From NCBI RefSeq assembly GCF_945956965.1, contig NZ_CAMFJS010000002.1:1-64000 (forward strand): DNA of 64,000 bases. Direction: 5' to 3'. A model generated the notes under the pieces. The model had not been told where the DNA came from and searched no databases. It saw only the letters and a list, made by a program, of their open reading frames with translations. The stretch's first letter is position 1; each line of letters opens with the position of its first letter. The position numbers and the translations under genes were made by a program. This document shows positions 18,864 through 57,151 of this stretch, piece by piece. Source of the DNA: an uncultured Roseateles sp. GTDB lineage: Bacteria > Pseudomonadota > Gammaproteobacteria > Burkholderiales > Burkholderiaceae_C.

Positions 18864-20414
18864 ATGAGCGTAGATATGCAAAGCGTAGGGATGCAAGGCG
18901 AGAATTCGCAGGGCGCAGACACGCTGGGAGCGGACCTTTGGCAGCGCGGATGTGAGCGTTTGGCCACCGAGTTGCCCGAACAACAATTCAACACCTGGAT
19001 TCGCCCCTTGCCACCGGCCATGGTGGCCGAAGGCGCGAGCGCCGATGGTCTGGTGTTTTCGCTGCGGGTGCCCAACCGCTTCAAGCTGGACTGGATCCGC
19101 AACCAGTACGCCGGCCGCATCGAATCCATTTTGACCGAGTTGGCCGGCAAACCGGCCCGCCTGGAACTGGCCCTGGCCGCCCGCGAACCGATGGCGCGCG
19201 CCGTGGCCGCCCCGGCCAATACCGTTGCCGCCAATCAGCCCATGGCCGTCGGCCAGGTGCTGCACAACGGCCTGCGGCCGGTGTCCGCCGGACCCAGCCC
19301 GGCCCCAGTCGCAGCACCGGCCAATGGCCCGCTGACCCACGGCCAGCCCGTGGCGCAAGCGCCTGCGCCGCAGAACCTGCCGCCGAGCGCCAGCCGCCAC
19401 CGCATCAATAGTGCGCTGACTTTTGACAACCTCGTCCCCGGCCGCGCCAACCAGATGGCACGCACCGCCGCCCTGCATGTGGCCGGCGCTCCGGGCGCGA
19501 TGTACAACCCGCTGTTCATCTACGGCGGCGTGGGCCTGGGCAAGACCCATTTGATCCACGCCGTGGGTAACGCCCTGCTGAAGGACAAGCCCGATGCGCG
19601 GGTGCTTTACCTGCACGCCGAGCAGTTCATCTCCGACGTGGTGAAGAACTACCAGCGCAAGACTTTTGATGAGCTGAAGGCCAAGTACCACTCGCTCGAT
19701 CTGCTGCTGATCGACGATGTGCAGTTCTTCGCCGGCAAAGAGCGCACGCAGGAAGAGTTCTTCAACGCCTTCGAAGCCCTGCTGGCCAAGCGCGCCCACA
19801 TCATCATGACCAGCGACACCTACCCCAAGGGTCTGGCTGATATCGATGAGCGCCTCACCAGCCGTTTCGACGCCGGCCTGACGGTGGCCATCGAGCCGCC
19901 CGAGCTGGAAATGCGAGTGGCGATTCTGATCAAGAAGGCCGAAGCCGAGCAGACGCCCATGCCCGAAGACGTGGCCTTCTTCATCGCCAAGAATGTGCGC
20001 GCCAACGTGCGTGAGCTGGAAGGCGCCTTGCGCAAGGTGCTGGCCTACAGCCGCTTCAGCCACAAGGAAATCAATATCCAGCTGGCCCGCGAAGCGCTGA
20101 AAGACCTGCTCTCGATCCAGAACCGCCAAGTGTCTGTGGAAAACATCCAAAAGACCGTGGCCGACTTCTACAAGATCAAGATCGCCGATATGTACAGCAA
20201 GAAGCGCCCGGCCAGCATTGCCCGGCCGCGCCAGATTGCCATGTACCTGGCCAAGGAAATGACGCAAAAGAGCCTGCCCGAGATCGGCGAGCTGTTCGGC
20301 GGCCGCGACCACACCACCGTGCTGCATGCGGTGCGCAAAATCGGCGGCGAGCGGCAGAAGAACACCGAGCTCAACCAGCAATTGCACGTGCTGGAACAGA
20401 CGCTCAAAGGCTGA
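18864..20414 (+). CDS. dnaA: Chromosomal replication initiator protein DnaA
   Basis: This 516-aa AAA+ protein binds DnaA boxes and opens the origin. Domain I is at about 10-100, with a long Ala/Pro linker (domain II) of about 110-175. Domain III has Walker [10 protein letters not shown] near 220-228 and Walker B L-L-L-I-D-D-V-Q. Domain IV carries the DNA-binding signature [14 protein letters not shown] near 479-492. The linker is longer than in E. coli (total 467 aa), as is common in betaproteobacteria. It starts at ATG 18864, with no upstream in-frame start before a stop. dnaN follows after 124 bases. Confidence 0.98.
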
Positions 20415-24351: not shown

Positions 24352-24430
24352 GTCGTCTACTGATTGTGGAACCTCAGTCGTCAGCATCTACTCCCGCATT
24401 GGTGTTCGACAGTCCTTCGCGAACACAGAG

Positions 24431-24640
24431 ATGAAGGCATTTCTAGTCGCTCCGCAGAGCACAGCAGCACTGATTGAGTTGAACTTGACCCCTTTGAACT
24501 ATCTTGAAGGGCGCTCTCACTTTCTCGCCAAACTGAAAACTAACTTCTTTTGCTTCTTGGCCAACGCGGCGAAGGAGGGAAAGCAATGCCTTTTGGTACG
24601 GTTGGCGAAAAGTTTATGGGCTGACAGGGAAAGAGCATGA
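24431..24640 (+). CDS. 69-aa protein, first gene of the KGGVGR-ATPase cassette
   Basis: The frame runs from ATG 24431 (MKAFLVAPQST) to TGA 24638-24640 and overlaps the next start (ATGA), which supports it being translated. It has a Leu-rich N-terminal part, a hydrophobic patch N-F-F-C-F-L-A-N and a basic tail. No family is recognised. No membrane helix is convincing. The ribosome site is weak. An in-frame start inside the gyrB end at 24302 would add 43 residues but is unlikely. Base composition is low for this genome (28 G+C of 60 at 24481-24540). Confidence 0.5.
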   Translation: MKAFLVAPQSTAALIELNLTPLNYLEGRSHFLAKLKTNFFCFLANAAKEGKQCLLVRLAKSLWADRERA

Positions 24641-25053
24641 GCGCGATCCCTTTTACCAATCGTGAATTGACGCGTGCGATGCGAGAGTTGGAGGCCGTGG
24701 CTACGCCTCCAACTGAATCAGCGCGGAAAAACCCACATCGCTTGTTGCTGTTCTATGCGGTGGAGTGCGGATTGAAAGCCGTTTGGCTCAGACGCCAACG
24801 GCGAGACGTGTTTGATAGCGTCGATATCACCAAAACTGGCCACAACCTACGGCAAGTTCTGAAGGAGCTAAACGTGGGAGCGCATCTGGCGCTGCCGGAG
24901 TCCTTTCAACTGGAAAGGCCAGTGCGACGTGCGCAGTTTGGCGACATTCATCAAGCCTGGCGGTATGGGGGAAAGTGTTTCTCCCCAACGGACGAAGACT
25001 GCGAGAAGCAATTGCTAAAAGTGTTGAGTTGGATTCAAGGAGAGCTCAAATGA
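24637..25053 (+). CDS. HEPN-like small helical protein, second gene of the cassette
   Basis: This 138-aa, all-helical protein starts at ATG 24637. The block L-L-F-Y-A-V-E-C-G-L-K-A-V-W near residues 35-49 and G-H-N-L-R-Q-V-L-K-E-L near 68-78 resemble the first and third helices of HEPN-type proteins, which are often toxins or RNases in defence loci. A canonical catalytic Arg-x(4-6)-His motif is not evident, so it may be a non-catalytic HEPN or a different helical fold. It overlaps both neighbours by four bases, so stoichiometric production with the ATPase is likely. The family match is an inference. Confidence 0.6.
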   Translation: MSAIPFTNRELTRAMRELEAVATPPTESARKNPHRLLLFYAVECGLKAVWLRRQRRDVFDSVDITKTGHNLRQVLKELNVGAHLALPESFQLERPVRRAQFGDIHQAWRYGGKCFSPTDEDCEKQLLKVLSWIQGELK

Positions 25054-27821
25054 ACGCAAACAACACAATAGCTGAACGTTTGCTGACTTGGCTTGATGTG
25101 GAGCGCCTACTCAAGCAGCGTACGGTGCTTTGGTCAAAATTGCCCCCTGGTGTACTCGGCCTAGACTGCTTTGCCAGCGGTATGGAAGTCCGTTACGGAG
25201 CGGCATCAGAACAGTGCATCGACACATGGTTAGCGCAGATCTTTGGCAGTGCTTTTCTTCCTGTACCAAGAGCAGTCCAACTGCGCATCGGCAACGCAAT
25301 TTATCCCATCGAATTGCTTGAAGAGCCAGGAACGACCTTACCCGCTATCGGAAAAAGCTACCCGCTGTGGCGCGATGTAACCTACCTGTCAACTGATCAA
25401 GAAGAATCCACTAGTGAGGATGACCAAGAGGCAACGGTCCAGTCCTCCTACAACGTTCCCGGTCGAGAGCCCACTCGATTCGTTGAGGGACCAGATTTGG
25501 TTTCCTTCCATTCGTTCAAGGGCGGCGTAGGGCGCACCACCGCGCTAATGACCTACGTGACGGCTTGCTTGCGTGACGCCACCCCGGGGACCAAGAAGAT
25601 TTTGGTAGTCGATGCCGACCTGGAAGCCCCCGGTGTCAGCTTCTGGCTTGATGATGCCAACCGCCCAAGCGTCTCCTTCGTGCAATTGCTAGAGGCGCTG
25701 CATTACCCTCCTGCTGGGCTGGATGCCAGCTTGGACTTCTTTGCAGAGGAGTTGCGCAAAACATCCATGAGTTTTGGTGGATTGCAACGCGAACTGTTTG
25801 TGCTGCCGGCGGCATTGGATCTTGCCGAAATTCAAGACATGCCCGTGAGCCCTGAGCACCTGGCACGCGATCCACTCAACCCCTGGAAGCTTAGCGATCA
25901 TTTGCATGCATTGGGCAAGCGTCTGGGCGCAGATGTGGTGTTCGTGGATCTCCGTGCGGGACTTAGTGAACTAGCAAGTCCAATTTTGTTCGACCCACGC
26001 GTTGATCACTTTTTTGTCAGCACGGTGGCACCCCAGTCAGTGCTAGGGATGAAGGAAGTGTTACGACGGCTGTATGCCAACAATCGCCTTTTACCCAGTA
26101 GCTGGCAGGAAGAGGTCCGGCCCACAGTAGTGCTGAGCCTACTGACCAAGGAACTGCGCGATGCTGGGCTCTACGAAAGTGCATTAAAGACATTGGGGGC
26201 AGCCTACCCCGCGGACGACCCGCTGACTCCAGCCGTGCAATGGCTGGAAGCAGAGTTTTTGAGCACCTTAATGTCAATTGGCTCACTGCGTGAAGCGCTA
26301 GACAACTTGCCGCAATCCCAACGCTTGTATGCAAGTGCCTCGGATTGGGCGAAAGCCCTGTATTTCCAAGCATCGCCTGAATCAGCAGTTGCTGCGTTAA
26401 CAGGGTCGACCGATGTTTCTATCGCCCGGAAGTCGGCTGAGCGACTGTTCGAAGTCTGTACGTCTGCTGAGTTTGCTGAGGGTAGCCAAGCAAGCTCAAT
26501 CCTCGCCACTGAACCCTTGCTAAACCTTGGAAAACACTTCGCTCACGATCTGCCCAACGTTCTGATGATTGGAGCCAAGGGGGCAGGTAAGACTTTCACT
26601 TTCCGGCAAGCAGTTCTGGCTGGCGGATGGACGGCCTTCTTGAGCAAGCTTGGCTTCGATCCGGCGAACACCAGCGACGCGCACACATTCCCTGTGCTGT
26701 GGTCTGACAACATAGCTGACAAGCCCGATGGTGAAATCAAGACTGCGCAAATTCGAACGATTGAATCCATCGGCGGCGACAAAGTAAATCTACTCAGCGG
26801 GAACGAGGTGCGAAAGCGGATTGATGCCGCGCTCAAGAATCCACCCGGACATTGGGAGAACTTCTGGGATGAACTAGTCGCCGCTCAGTTCGGAATCAAG
26901 AACGGGGGGTTGAAAGAAGTCAACGACCTTTTGATCATCAAGTCGGCGCGAACGATTCTGATGTTTGACGGCATCGAAGACGCCTTTGGCGATGCAGAAG
27001 TAGCCCCGGCAGGGGATGCCATTCAGGCTTTGCTGCGCTTGCCAAATCGAATTAGCGAGCTAGGCAATCCACACCTTGGTGCGTTGGTATTTGTACGAAT
27101 CGATTACGTGCAATCAACTATTCGGCAGAACACCGGCCAATGGCTCCAGAGGTTTCAGCCGTTCCGTCTGCATTGGAACGCAGAGAGCTTTCTTCGATTA
27201 GCTTTTATGTTGAGCAGTCAGGCAGGCGTGCATTCATCGCAAAGCCCAGCCGAATCTCTACATCTCGAAGAGTTGAAACAAGAGCTAGAGCGGTTGTGGG
27301 GCAAAAAGCTAGGTAGCGAGAAATCAAAGGAAGCACATTCTGCACGTTGGGTGTATGCAGCACTGTGCGACCTTAAAGGCAATGTTCAGGCACGTGACTT
27401 GGTTCGGTTCTTAAAGTTCGCGGCGGATGAGGAGGCCAAACGCACAGGGCCAACATGGTCACATCGCTTGTTGGCACCGGAGTCGATGCGCAAGGCTGTC
27501 CCACGCTGCAGTGAAGAAAAGGTCACCGAGGCAAAAGCAGAAATCGCATCGCTTAGGAAATGGTCGGAACTGATGACTGAAAAGCACATCCGAAACTTGA
27601 AGGTGCCATTCAGTGCTGCGCAAGCTGGGCTCGATGCAAGCACACTCAGCACGCTGCAAGAGATCGGGGTTATTTACGAGGATTTGGATGGCAAGCTGGG
27701 CGAGGAGCGTCTGTTTTTGCCGGAAATCTACCGATCCGGCTTAGGCTTTGAAACGTCAGCAGCTGGGCGTCCACGTATGCAAGCACTGTTGAAAAAGAAC
27801 ATTGGTGTAATTCCTTTGTGA
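25050..27821 (+). CDS. KGGVGR-motif variant ParA/MinD-like ATPase fused to a second P-loop NTPase
   Basis: This 923-aa protein starts at ATG 25050, overlapping the HEPN-like stop. Residues 1-145 are a variable N-terminal domain ending in an acidic linker. The first ATPase (about 148-380) has a deviant Walker A, KGGVGRTT at 157-164, in place of the ParA KGGVGKTT. V-V-D-A-D-L-E-A-P-G follows at 187-195, then D-V-V-F-V-D-L near 295. The second NTPase (about 500-720) has G-A-K-G-A-G-K-T at 508-515 and Walker B I-L-M-F-D-G-I-E-D at 636-644. The C-terminus (about 780-923) looks helical, perhaps winged-helix. NCBI names similar proteins KGGVGR-motif variant AAA ATPase. No target is known. The cassette context suggests a phage-defence sensor or effector. 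Confidence 0.85.
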   Translation: MNANNTIAERLLTWLDVERLLKQRTVLWSKLPPGVLGLDCFASGMEVRYGAASEQCIDTWLAQIFGSAFLPVPRAVQLRIGNAIYPIELLEEPGTTLPAIGKSYPLWRDVTYLSTDQEESTSEDDQEATVQSSYNVPGREPTRFVEGPDLVSFHSFKGGVGRTTALMTYVTACLRDATPGTKKILVVDADLEAPGVSFWLDDANRPSVSFVQLLEALHYPPAGLDASLDFFAEELRKTSMSFGGLQRELFVLPAALDLAEIQDMPVSPEHLARDPLNPWKLSDHLHALGKRLGADVVFVDLRAGLSELASPILFDPRVDHFFVSTVAPQSVLGMKEVLRRLYANNRLLPSSWQEEVRPTVVLSLLTKELRDAGLYESALKTLGAAYPADDPLTPAVQWLEAEFLSTLMSIGSLREALDNLPQSQRLYASASDWAKALYFQASPESAVAALTGSTDVSIARKSAERLFEVCTSAEFAEGSQASSILATEPLLNLGKHFAHDLPNVLMIGAKGAGKTFTFRQAVLAGGWTAFLSKLGFDPANTSDAHTFPVLWSDNIADKPDGEIKTAQIRTIESIGGDKVNLLSGNEVRKRIDAALKNPPGHWENFWDELVAAQFGIKNGGLKEVNDLLIIKSARTILMFDGIEDAFGDAEVAPAGDAIQALLRLPNRISELGNPHLGALVFVRIDYVQSTIRQNTGQWLQRFQPFRLHWNAESFLRLAFMLSSQAGVHSSQSPAESLHLEELKQELERLWGKKLGSEKSKEAHSARWVYAALCDLKGNVQARDLVRFLKFAADEEAKRTGPTWSHRLLAPESMRKAVPRCSEEKVTEAKAEIASLRKWSELMTEKHIRNLKVPFSAAQAGLDASTLSTLQEIGVIYEDLDGKLGEERLFLPEIYRSGLGFETSAAGRPRMQALLKKNIGVIPL

Positions 27822-28230: not shown

Positions 28231-29328
28231 GTGAGTGTCGTGAAGTCCTTGATTCGTTCGCAGTGGGTGCCCGGGCGTCGGCGCTTTGTGGGTTTGGCCG
28301 GTGCTGCTGTGGCCCTGGGTGGAGGCTTGGGCTCCTTGGGCGCTATGGCGCAGGCAGAGTTGCGCGGGGCGGGCGCCACGTTTCCGGCCAAGCTGTATCA
28401 GCGCTGGGGGCGGCAATATGCGCAGTCTGGCGGCCAGGTGGTGAACTACAAGCCGACGGGCTCGGGGGATGGCCTTCGCCAGGCGGTGGCTCGCAGTGTC
28501 GACTTTGCTTGCGTTGACACGCCGGTGTCGGCGCAAGAGTTGACTAAGCGCCGTTTGGTGCAAATTCCGACTTGCGTGGGCGGCTTGGTGCCGGTGGTGC
28601 AGGGCTTTGAGAACCAGAAGCTGAAGCTGACCGGCGAGTTGCTGGCCGACATCATGCTGGGCGACATTGAACGCTGGAACGATCCGCGCATTGCGGCGGT
28701 CAACAAGAATCTGCCCCTGCCCAATCGCCGCATCGTGCGGGTGGTGCGCAGCGACAAGTCCGGCAGCACCGAGAGCGTGACCCGCTACCTGGCCCAGCAG
28801 TCGTCCCGCTTCGCCACGGACGTGGGCAGCAGCGCGCTGCCCAAGTGGCCGGGCGAGGTGGTGGCGGCAGAAGGCACGGATGGCATCGCCCAGGCGGTGA
28901 AGGCAACGCCGGGCGCGATTGGCTTCGTCAGCTCAGACCGGGTGGACGCCGATGCCTTGGCCGGCGTGCAGCTGCGCAATCGCGATGGCCAGTTCGTCTC
29001 GGCTTCGGAGGCGGGTTTTCGCGCCGCCATTCTGAACAGCGAGCTGGCCCGCAGCGGACAAGACACAGCCAGCTTGCTGGACATGCCGGGCGCCGACGCC
29101 TGGCCGCTGACACAGACCACTTTTGTGCTGCTGGATGCCCTGCCGGCCACCGCCGCCAGCGTGGAGCCGGCGCTGAAGTTCTGGTACTGGTGTTTCAGCC
29201 GCGGCGATAACCTGACCAAGGGCACCGGCTTTGCCCCGCTGCCCACTTCGATGCAGACCAAGCTGGCCGGGCGCTTTGCCCAGGTGCGGCCGCAAAGCGG
29301 CGATCTGCCGCGTTATCAGATGCTCTGA
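28231..29328 (+). CDS. pstS: Phosphate-binding periplasmic protein, PstS-like (orphan)
   Basis: The protein is 365 aa from GTG 28231 (another GTG at 28240). The N-terminus has Arg-Arg-Arg-Phe-Val-Gly-Leu before a hydrophobic stretch and A-M-A-Q-A, so export may use the Tat route. The mature start G-A-G-A-T-F-P-A-x-L-Y-x-x-W and the later phosphate-contact block S-G-S-T-E-S are PstS signatures. It belongs to the PBP-like superfamily. There are no pstC, pstA, pstB or phoU genes nearby, so it is a stand-alone copy. It may serve a transporter coded elsewhere or another role in phosphate binding. Confidence 0.85.
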   Translation: MSVVKSLIRSQWVPGRRRFVGLAGAAVALGGGLGSLGAMAQAELRGAGATFPAKLYQRWGRQYAQSGGQVVNYKPTGSGDGLRQAVARSVDFACVDTPVSAQELTKRRLVQIPTCVGGLVPVVQGFENQKLKLTGELLADIMLGDIERWNDPRIAAVNKNLPLPNRRIVRVVRSDKSGSTESVTRYLAQQSSRFATDVGSSALPKWPGEVVAAEGTDGIAQAVKATPGAIGFVSSDRVDADALAGVQLRNRDGQFVSASEAGFRAAILNSELARSGQDTASLLDMPGADAWPLTQTTFVLLDALPATAASVEPALKFWYWCFSRGDNLTKGTGFAPLPTSMQTKLAGRFAQVRPQSGDLPRYQML

Positions 29329-54298: not shown

Positions 54299-54723
54299 CA
54301 CGTTCTCCCAGAACGCTTGCATCCTACGCGGGAACGGCGGCGCCCTCAGTCATCCCTTGGCCAGCCCAGCGCACAGCAGCCCAACCCTGGCAAGCAACTG
54401 AGCAGGAGGCCATGCCCAGAGCACTTGACGTCTGGCTATTCAGTTATGTGCATGGCGGATCGAGCGTCCAAGCTTGCATTGCCTGAGCATCCATCCCTTT
54501 GGAACTTGGCGGCTGTGCTCGCCACATTGGCAAGAGCATATCGGCAGCAAGATTCATCCAATGGCTCCGCAGCTCCCGGCCCCAGCGGTGTCGCTATGTG
54601 GGCCATCGCACGGTTTAGCAAATTGGGCAGGCATATGGTGATGTGGCACCTTGATCTGGCGAAAGCCGAGTCAGTGCAGCTTGTGTCTTAGCAAGTCCAT
54701 CTCCTCAACCAAGGAAACTCACC
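54299..54723. other. Gene-poor stretch
   Basis: Short frames on both strands lack ribosome sites and match nothing I recognise. No RNA gene or clear repeat is visible. The last 20 bases hold the AAGGA ribosome site of the next gene. Confidence 0.45.
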
Positions 54724-54927
54724 ATGCAACGCCCCAACGACGCCAGTGCACTTCACAAAAAGGCAGCCAGCGATCATGCCGCGGCCGCCAAGCACCACAT
54801 CAAGGCCGCCGAAAGCCATGATCACAACAAGTCGAATGATGCGAAATCCAGCGGCAAGAGTGCGATGGACTGCAGCAACACGGCCCATAAAACCAGCAAA
54901 GCCGCCTGCAACAGCTCAGACATGTGA
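54724..54927 (+). CDS. Small Lys/His/Ala-rich protein
   Basis: This 67-aa hydrophilic protein starts at ATG 54724, with a strong AAGGAAACTCACC ribosome site, which supports expression. It has 14 Ala, 9 Lys, 7 His and two Cys, and no hydrophobic core, so it is probably disordered. Histidine pairs suggest metal or nucleic-acid binding, but I know no family. The AAAAKHHIKAAESHDHN region resembles histone-H1-like repeats in some betaproteobacteria. Confidence 0.65.
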   Translation: MQRPNDASALHKKAASDHAAAAKHHIKAAESHDHNKSNDAKSSGKSAMDCSNTAHKTSKAACNSSDM

Positions 54928-55094
54928 ACCGTGTGTCGCTCGTCCTGGACAACGCTCATGACGATGCGATCTGCAGTTAGCTCGGGTCCGAGCAAGCAGC
55001 TAGGCCTGCGAGGCCTCCTGGTGAAGCAAAGCGAACCAGGGGGTCTATGCGGAGACGGCATGCATTACCGCGACCTGAGTCACAAGACAGCCGC

Positions 55095-56780
55095 TCAGGC
55101 TTCAAGTGGCCGGTTCGGCTCATAGATTTGAATATTATTTCTGCCCGCCCGCTTGGCCTTGTACATCGCGATATCTGCGAAATTAACAATATCTTCCGGA
55201 CGAGATTCATTCTTAAAAAACATGGCAATGCCAATGCTGACCGTGCACCAATGGGTGACGGTAGATGCAAGCTCGTCCTTGTGTTGAACCTTCAATTGAT
55301 AAGGCTCTGCCAAGGCCAAGCGGATTTTCTCTGCCACATTTCTGGCTTGCACGGTGGATTCAGCCTTGTCGGCGACAAGCTCATTGATCAGCACCGCAAA
55401 TTCATCGCCGCCAAAGCGTGCGACTGTATCCACCGCGCGGACACAGTTTTTTATTCGGTTCGCGACCTCAATCAGCAACAAATCACCGACCTCATGACCG
55501 TCGGAATCATTTAACTGCTTCAGATTATCTAAATCAAGAAACATCAGCGCACCGTAATGATTGCTCCGGTGGCTGGCGGCAATAGCCTGCGTCAGACGGT
55601 CGTTGAAAAGCCGCCGATTAGGCAATTGCGTGAGCGGGTCATGATGCGCCAAATGGTTGATGACTTCATCGGCATGTTTGCGTTCGGTCACGTCGATACC
55701 AAGCTCCAAGACCAAGCTCTCACCATCGTCGTCAGTAAAAGGATAATCGTAGATTTGATAAACCCGGCCATCGCGCTGGCTTTTTGCTTCCCAATGCTCC
55801 GGCTTTTGGGTCTTGAAAACATTGAAGGTCGGGCAAGTGTCGCAAGGTCGGTCGCGCTGCCACATCAGCTGATAGCAAGGTTTACCGTGCGGATTGCCAA
55901 AGCGATCGCGGAAGAAACGATTGGCGAAGCGGATGGAGTAATCTGCCGCCTGCAAATAAACGTAGACCGGCAGCTCTTCAAGGATGGCATAGAGTTGGCG
56001 ACGCTCTCTGACTACCTTCTGTTCGGCCTCTTTACGTTCGTGAATATCAAGGCAATGGCCGACATATCCGACAAAAGCACCACTGCTGTCATAACGCGGT
56101 TTGCCCTCATCAATAATCCAGCGATAGGCGCCGTCGTGGCGGCGCAGGCGATATTCCATGGTAAACGCTTCACGGCGTTCGAATGCCGCCAGATAAGTAT
56201 TTAGGCAGCTTTGAATATCATCGGGGTATACACCCTCAGTCCAGCCATTACCAAGTTCTTGCGCCTCGGTTCGCCCGGTAAAGCTCAGCCAAGGCTGGTT
56301 GAAATAGAAACATGCCTTGTCCACGCCGGCCATCCAGATCAGGGCTTGACCGTTATCGGCCACGGCCCGGTAAACCTCCTTCTGCCGCATCAGCGCATCT
56401 TCAGCCATTTTCCGATCGCTGATGTCGGTGACATAGACCAAGCGCCGTTTTTGACCGTCACGCCCCACTACGCAGGCAGAATTCGTCAGTACCTGCCGAA
56501 AAGTCCCGTCCTTGCGTATGACTTTCCATTCGCCGCCCAAAACACCACCTTCCGACAAAAATTTTTGGTGCAGGCTTAAAACCTTTTGCTGTTGATCAGC
56601 GGGGAAAATCATCGTGACGCTATTCCCAAGCAACTCCTCTTCAGAGTAGCCGTAAATCGCGCAATAGCTGGGATTAACGACTTCGAACCGGCCGCTAAAG
56701 TCAAAGATCGCGATGCCAATGGGCGCATCGAGCAAAATTTGATCGGGTTGAATAGCGTAGGCCGCACTCAATGGGAGCAT
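55095..56780 (-). CDS. PAS-PAS-PAS-GGDEF diguanylate cyclase
   Basis: This 561-aa cytoplasmic protein starts at ATG 56780, eight bases after AAGGA. There are three PAS domains (about 12-125, 130-255, 265-375), the third with a C-Y-Q-L-M-W-Q-R-D-R-P-C-D-T-C motif. A GGDEF domain (about 385-555) has L-D-L-D-N-L-K and an intact F-G-G-D-E-F, so it should make cyclic di-GMP. No transmembrane helix is present. The gene is unusually AT-rich in part (22 G+C of 60 at 55501-55560), which suggests horizontal transfer. Confidence 0.9.
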   Translation of the reverse strand: MLPLSAAYAIQPDQILLDAPIGIAIFDFSGRFEVVNPSYCAIYGYSEEELLGNSVTMIFPADQQQKVLSLHQKFLSEGGVLGGEWKVIRKDGTFRQVLTNSACVVGRDGQKRRLVYVTDISDRKMAEDALMRQKEVYRAVADNGQALIWMAGVDKACFYFNQPWLSFTGRTEAQELGNGWTEGVYPDDIQSCLNTYLAAFERREAFTMEYRLRRHDGAYRWIIDEGKPRYDSSGAFVGYVGHCLDIHERKEAEQKVVRERRQLYAILEELPVYVYLQAADYSIRFANRFFRDRFGNPHGKPCYQLMWQRDRPCDTCPTFNVFKTQKPEHWEAKSQRDGRVYQIYDYPFTDDDGESLVLELGIDVTERKHADEVINHLAHHDPLTQLPNRRLFNDRLTQAIAASHRSNHYGALMFLDLDNLKQLNDSDGHEVGDLLLIEVANRIKNCVRAVDTVARFGGDEFAVLINELVADKAESTVQARNVAEKIRLALAEPYQLKVQHKDELASTVTHWCTVSIGIAMFFKNESRPEDIVNFADIAMYKAKRAGRNNIQIYEPNRPLEA

Positions 56781-57151
56781 TTAGCAATTCCTTTGCTTCT
56801 CCACCGCGCATCGCAATTGCACGATTACCGCTTGGTGGCCTACGCCTTGAAATCAAATTCCACTGACCCAGGCCGTCTTTGCATTCAATCAATCGAGAAC
56901 ACTGAAAGATTTATCCGCCGCGCGCCGCCCTAACTGCAAGTCCCCGCAGGCAGGCGGATGCCACTACAAGAGTACTCCAAACCCGCCTGCTTCGGACTGC
57001 AAAAAGCACAAATGAGGGGCCTGTTGCCTGTCGCATCGAGCAGCTGAGATCAGCGGGCGCGGCGCCGCCGCATCAAGCGAGACGCCTCTGTGCTGGTAAG
57101 CCTGCATGTCCATGAGTACAGAATCGCAGCATCGCTGAGTATCATGTTTCG
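56781..57151. other. Intergenic stretch without a recognised gene
   Basis: 371 bases lie between divergent units. Only minor frames without ribosome sites are present. No RNA gene was recognised. Confidence 0.45.

Follow-up and report, generated by a model that had tools for sequence, protein, structure and literature searches.

A probable PDC-M28-type module with fused B and C genes behind gyrB of an uncultured Roseateles

The DNA considered here (the window) comprises the first 64,000 nucleotides of contig NZ_CAMFJS010000002.1 from an uncultured Roseateles sp. Behind gyrB, it carries a small gene for a HEPN-like protein (gene A; protein P0002) overlapping with a long gene for a protein with two nucleoside triphosphatase (NTPase) domains (gene B-C; protein P0003). 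The two genes very probably constitute a module of the PDC-M28 type, a candidate defence system represented in PADLOC-DB 2.0.0 by the models PDC-M28A, B, and C, with B and C fused into one protein. Judged from sequence and predicted structure, and with a probability of about 0.45, A would be a ribonuclease (RNase) effector and B-C its regulator, the pair bringing about growth arrest on infection.

The assignment to PDC-M28 derives from P0003, which was matched by two PDC-M28B models (2.6e-15 and 4.1e-5) and by PDC-M28C (1.8e-7), the latter partially and with its best stretch at residues 738-856. In PADLOC, B and C are separate proteins; here, both NTPase halves of a single protein match these candidate-defence models. 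The PDC-M28A models did not match P0002, and gene A is linked to the system via relatives. In one relative with split genes (L058), the PDC-M28A, B, and C models match three consecutive genes (A with 8.3e-14), and P0002 is connected to the A gene of this locus by a weak tblastn match (1.1e-4) as well as by shared position and motifs. Thus, the likeness to PDC-M28 consists of the order A-B-C, the matched B and C models, and the A model matched in the L058 relative, whereas the difference is that B and C are a single open reading frame (ORF) instead of two of three separate genes. Because gene A misses PDC-M28A and the genes do not number three, the locus is termed a PDC-M28 variant. A literature search, which covered few subscription journals, found neither the names PDC-M28, KGGVGR, and Sll1717 nor a description of the module; the family is known here only by these names of hidden Markov models (HMMs).

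The original prediction had proposed a cassette of three overlapping genes. The three ORFs are present and both overlaps read ATGA, but the conserved unit is one of two genes, A and the fused B-C; gene 1 is not conserved, and the three-gene reading was dropped. Among 398 genomes of the phylum, 26 were matched by PDC-M28C, in 41 rows corresponding to 39 places. Of these places, 37 were read, the other two being fragments of G531 (contigs 140 and 51). When starting from C alone, B adjoins C or is fused with it in 31 of the 37 places. Loci with both B and C numbered 42, fused in 22 and split in 20 (L056, which is the same as L054, was excluded, and L168 and L178, on the L053 contig, are not separate loci). 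The A motif was found directly upstream of B in 39 of them; in the remaining three, A is visible by eye only (L142), represented by its C-terminal half (L147), or was not found (L119). Thus, the predicted co-occurrence applies to genes 2 and 3 (A and B-C) and not to gene 1. In a tree of 41 loci (L054, in which the gene is cut at the contig end, was excluded), the fused label needs two changes, with L127 being fused inside a split clade; this is an argument for B and C acting as a single complex. Where they are split, B and C overlap by exactly 4 nucleotides in 12 of 20 loci, as judged from longest-ORF starts.

Compared with their Lampropedia counterparts, gene A carries 38, 23, and 71 substitutions at the first, second, and third codon positions (138 codons), and gene B-C 199, 127, and 538 (919 codons). 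This pattern identifies both as real genes, and both are under purifying selection. The lower G+C content claimed for the cassette was confirmed: the underlying hand counts (28/60 at 24481-24540 and 33/60 at 26281-26340 versus 39/60 at 28981-29040 and 47/60 at 19261-19320) are exact, and positions 24431-27821 have a G+C content of 0.533 versus 0.636 for the window. The low-G+C stretch extends from the end of gyrB to ∼28 kb. At third codon positions, the G+C content is 0.57-0.59 in genes A and B-C versus 0.86-0.87 in gyrB and dnaN, consistent with an origin outside this genome. A search for mobile-element ends found no convincing repeats flanking the cassette, and no transfer RNA gene was found in the window; promoter and terminator predictions did not exceed those in shuffled sequence.

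The distribution of gene B-C is patchy. Within the genus, it was found in the window's own genome alone, out of 18; some match was obtained in 17 of 299 genomes of the family, at full length only in two (the window's own and G842), and in 17 of 399 genomes of the order, with three at full length and one cut by a contig end. Near relatives occur in Dyella and Thiobaca. The clade containing the window (eight loci) includes Lampropedia (L050), a Burkholderiaceae metagenome-assembled genome (MAG; L053, the G842 contig), Dyella, Thiobaca, a Thiobacillus MAG, G283, and G081; its hosts belong to several families, which we take to fall in different orders. The patchy presence within genus and family, together with relatives in several families, fits horizontal transfer.

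The site itself is variable. Genes 1-3 are absent downstream of gyrB in all 16 relatives compared; most carry different cargo, and L074-L076 share one set. Nine proteins, chosen by eye from seven of the 16 loci and considered without a genome-wide baseline, were scanned for defence genes, and strong matches were obtained in five loci, hence in at least 5 of 16 relatives: type I methyltransferases (MTases; G004 in L064 and G010 in L065), a type III MTase (G009 in L068), Orf5/HEC-06 (G024 in L070), and Hachiman HamB (G003 in L073). The end of dnaA-dnaN-gyrB is a recurrent insertion slot, so that the accessory hotspot foreseen after gyrB was borne out, and the data fit horizontal acquisition of the module into this cargo slot.

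In gene B-C, both P-loops were found at the residues named by the original prediction (KGGVGRTT at 157-164 and GAKGAGKT at 508-515). The first lies in a domain that NF047398 (KGGVGR-motif variant AAA ATPase) matches over residues 148-341 with 159 bits, above its cut-off of 90; this model supplies a name for the domain only, and some proteins have the domain with no C in the vicinity (L059-L061). By Foldseek, it resembles FlhG (3.4e-5), ParA2 (8.7e-5), and NifH. The likeness to FlhG, ParA, and NifH structures in the PDB is one of fold, whereas gene B-C differs from them in the fused second NTPase and in having arginine for the P-loop lysine. The latter replacement of the lysine of ParA/MinD was seen in 45 of 45 B domains, that of P0003 included (counted for matches with E < 1e-20, which excludes the weak B match of L115 at 4e-11). 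The N-terminal domain in front of it recurs in one further fused clade (hhalign E 9.4e-10); hhalign found no similarity to the split B proteins or to a third fused clade. From this variability, the domain may be a specificity part. Behind the KGGVGR domain, the second half of the protein, set apart from the Sll1717 family by this fusion, aligns with NF047389 (P-loop ATPase, Sll1717 family; 61.6 bits, E 7.2e-17), and nSTAND_NTPase5 matches below its cut-off (E 0.018). Of 49 C-type ORFs, 47 keep the Walker A signature GK[ST], and 21 of 22 fused proteins have a Walker B-like DG[IL][ED]. Compared by sequence with the PDB, P0003 gave no match below 0.27, and its structural model is poor overall (predicted local distance difference test [pLDDT] 53.8), being best at about residues 530-690. 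Among viral contigs, no carrier of the module was confirmed; the one match from phages is distant, a protein of Microcystis phage Mic1 (L078:6031-6651) that is annotated as ParA family and has a stretch resembling the Sll1717-type domain (HMM, 5e-26). The annotated ORF showed no GK[ST] Walker A.

Gene A encodes the residues E43xxxK47, H69, and R109-Y110. Among the A proteins, ExxxK is present in 39 of 39, RY in 38 of 39 (the exception, L136, is truncated), and a histidine lies within three residues of the His69 column in 39 of 39; the alignment of A proteins (A3) excludes L136 and L146. In the account of AbiV and AF0298 in PMC3710099, the arginine of the HEPN motif is kept and the histidine lost, and an upstream histidine between helices 2 and 3 is a possible alternative RNase site. 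The A proteins fit this pattern with a conserved arginine lacking the canonical histidine, an upstream histidine, and ExxxK, although the sequence similarity is weak. When 37 A proteins were compared with Pfam (E up to 0.1), seven matched HEPN_AbiV (best 5.3e-5) and six HEPN (best 9.1e-8). The canonical motif Rx4-6H is kept in two of the 39 A proteins, both from split systems (L129 and L130; RYAHQSH and RYANQSH). In the low-confidence model of A, R109 ends a helix (101-109), and His69 is in the segment following a long helix (33-53). A profile of A gave no match to PDB sequences up to E 1. Two known HEPN families offer comparisons for the pairing of A with B-C. AbiV has no operon partner in its row of Table 1 of PMC3710099, unlike A. 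For MAE_18760, the same table gives an operon with a ParA/Soj SIMIBI ATPase, similar to A standing beside a MinD/ParA-type ATPase; however, MAE_18760 keeps Rx4-6H and has other fusions according to that source, and the likeness is by description only.

The surroundings of relatives place the module next to modification genes in some cases. In Lampropedia (L050:139-13583), a DruE-like helicase, a DpdE/DrmD-like helicase, and an Eco57I-type, DrmMI-like MTase precede A and B-C, and an HNH-like gene follows; the row matches models from several PADLOC systems, and MTase and A overlap by 4 nucleotides. The Burkholderiaceae MAG contains eroded remains of this row, namely the C-terminal 108 residues of the MTase (75% identity) and the HNH gene (65%). 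The A, B, and C genes of the split relative L058 stand beside HmaA and HmaB. The C genes of L137-L140 carry, as fusions, a calcineurin-like metallophosphoesterase and a NACHT domain (Pfam); L141 has a similarly long C gene, judged by length only, and L137-L141 are possibly an effector-carrying version of the system. The module can stand alone, beside modification systems, or with other effector-like domains.

We infer the following mechanism. A would be a metal-independent RNase of the AbiV/AF0298 type, using Arg109, Glu43, and His69, the latter between helices 2 and 3, and B-C its translationally coupled regulator. The C domain, with its intact Walker A motif, would sense an invasion cue and switch by binding or hydrolysing NTP, whereas the B domain would bind nucleotide, hydrolyse it poorly or not at all, and keep hold of A as a clamp for dimerisation or docking. 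Upon infection, B-C would release or activate A, RNA would be cleaved, and growth would stop before phage release. In the few relatives where the module lies inside modification-based operons, it may be the fallback when restriction fails. Counted in favour of this mechanism are the arginine P-loop of all B domains next to a C domain that nearly always keeps GK[ST]; the motifs of A, the Pfam HEPN matches, the linkage of A with B, the cargo of the slot, and the patchy presence; and the MTase and HNH genes of L050, their remnants in L053, and HmaA and HmaB in L058.

Several observations weigh against it. The canonical Rx4-6H is absent from P0002 and from 37 of 39 A sequences, and the exact His69 column holds histidine in only 21 of 39, so that this residue is not column-invariant. 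P0002 itself matched neither HEPN_AbiV nor HEPN of Pfam, and missed PDC-M28A as described above, so that both links run via relatives. Its model is mostly helical but of low confidence (pLDDT 60.7), and although HEPN proteins occupy ranks 1-3 and chains of HEPN-MNT complexes ranks 4-5 of the comparison with the PDB, all have E-values of 0.46-2. The NF047389 score of the C domain is under the curated cut-off of 75. Judging from the fusions in L137-L140, the family has further effectors besides A. Finally, no clear enrichment in defence islands was seen. At E 1e-20, 100 neighbouring ORFs did not differ clearly from 100 roughly matched control ORFs; mad3, for instance, matched 4 and 2 of them, respectively. 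The 100 neighbours are what remained of 113 ORFs, drawn from 151, after manual removal of 13 (12 leaked A genes and one antisense ORF); the controls were obtained from 126 ORFs on the first contig of 20 genomes, of which 120 were drawn and 100 used. The number of matched defence families was 86 for neighbours versus 13 for controls. However, in the first 25 of the 86, all families apart from mad3 have one protein each, the models are largely redundant, and few proteins stand behind them (Hma genes of the single locus L058, PtuA-like, GajB/UvrD-like).

Because the canonical motif is missing, A may be a dead HEPN adaptor, which is the main rival, albeit an unlikely one. The defence module would be the same, the NTPase pair acting as sensor and oligomerising switch and killing being left to C or to another partner such as the HNH protein or the MTase. 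The other effector-like domains on C in L137-L140 and the HNH gene downstream in L050 and L053 point in this direction. However, the consistently present ExxxK, RY, and nearby histidine seem to go beyond what an adaptor requires, two A proteins retain the canonical motif, and inspection by eye revealed no nuclease gene in the cassette of the window.

The row in L050, with its overlap of MTase and A, the remains in L053, which retains only the MTase tail and HNH, and the position of L058 among HmaA and HmaB would also agree with an accessory regulator of a modification-based system (restriction-modification, BREX- or Hma-like) that is orphaned in the window and may be inactive alone. This is improbable in our view: MTase or HNH pieces were found only in L050 and L053 of the eight loci of the window clade (several flanks are short), and genes A and B-C are still under purifying selection.

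HEPN toxins are known effectors of toxin-antitoxin systems, and a small HEPN-like gene that comes first and is coupled to its partner would suit a stabilisation module of HEPN toxin and B-C antitoxin without a phage-triggered role. The partner, however, is a 923-residue double NTPase, much larger than the antitoxins of HEPN toxins to our knowledge, and the family figures in PADLOC as a candidate for defence, so that we give this explanation little credit. A partition or positioning device of the ParA/MinD type, or a maintenance gene of a mobile element, is very improbable despite the MinD/ParA/FlhG-like fold and weak VirC1 and AAA_31 matches below their cut-offs, given that KGGxGK[ST] is absent from all 45 B domains, that the slot is chromosomal, that the partner is conserved and HEPN-like, and that no ParB-like gene was noticed by eye among the adjacent ORFs; the rarity within the genus and the invariant arginine likewise speak against a ubiquitous partition or housekeeping family, which would have undone the original prediction.

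Table 1. Features of the locus after gyrB (positions in the window).
Feature	Position	Strand	Remark
Gene 1, 69-aa ORF	24431..24640	+	First ORF; probably outside the system
Gene A (gene 2, P0002), HEPN-like, AbiV/HEPN-T type, 138 aa	24637..25053	+	Position upstream of B(-C) conserved
Gene B-C (gene 3, P0003), fused PDC-M28B and PDC-M28C, 923 aa	25050..27821	+	PADLOC models
N-terminal domain of B-C, residues 1-143	25050..25478	+	Differs between family clades; hhalign
KGGVGR domain of B-C, residues 148-341, MinD/ParA-like fold	25491..26072	+	Arg162 for P-loop Lys; NF047398, Foldseek
Sll1717/nSTAND-like NTPase and C-terminal helices of B-C, residues 481-923	26490..27818	+	Walker A 508-515, Walker B-like ILMFDGIED

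Gene 1 is probably outside the system (Table 1). No relatives of it were found among 149 other genomes of the family searched, in 72,556 plasmids at E 0.01, or among the related loci numbered L050 upwards. In other loci, the gene in front of A varies widely and is ileS, miaA, a sensor kinase gene, or an MTase gene (named by eye, except for the MTase). An ORF of at least its length arose in 3.4% of 20,000 first-order Markov samples of the same stretch, with the stop at the overlap given, which makes a chance origin unlikely; gene 1 may be a remnant or a leader ORF, if not a product of chance. Derivation from an MTase remnant was considered and rejected, as neither gene 1 nor the MTase tail gave a match linking them. 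For the stretch 24355-24640, the frame of gene 1 is open from 24302, within the end of gyrB, as far as the ATGA that it shares with gene A. Elsewhere in the window, a second patch of low G+C content (0.52-0.55) lies at 54500-57000 and contains, on the minus strand, an ORF judged by eye to be PAS/GGDEF-like (55095-56780).

A more far-reaching view, doubtful as yet, is that the module represents an immune device of its own kind. An AbiV-type HEPN RNase would be gated by two NTPases, encoded separately in the split relatives and jointly here: a MinD-fold, nucleotide-locked clamp with its always-arginine P-loop, and an nSTAND-type switch. The variable N-terminal domain would confer specificity, and the device would be passed from one chromosomal slot to another, serving some relatives as the suicide fallback of a modification system. 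The fusion of B and C reduces a test to two genes, clear residues to mutate are the invariant P-loop arginine of the MinD-type domain and those of the AbiV-like site in A, and the A proteins of L129 and L130 would be the best copies for an RNase assay. Should A turn out to be an RNase under the control of a locked MinD fold, this mode of arming an RNase would be new and would hint at what other KGGVGR proteins do.

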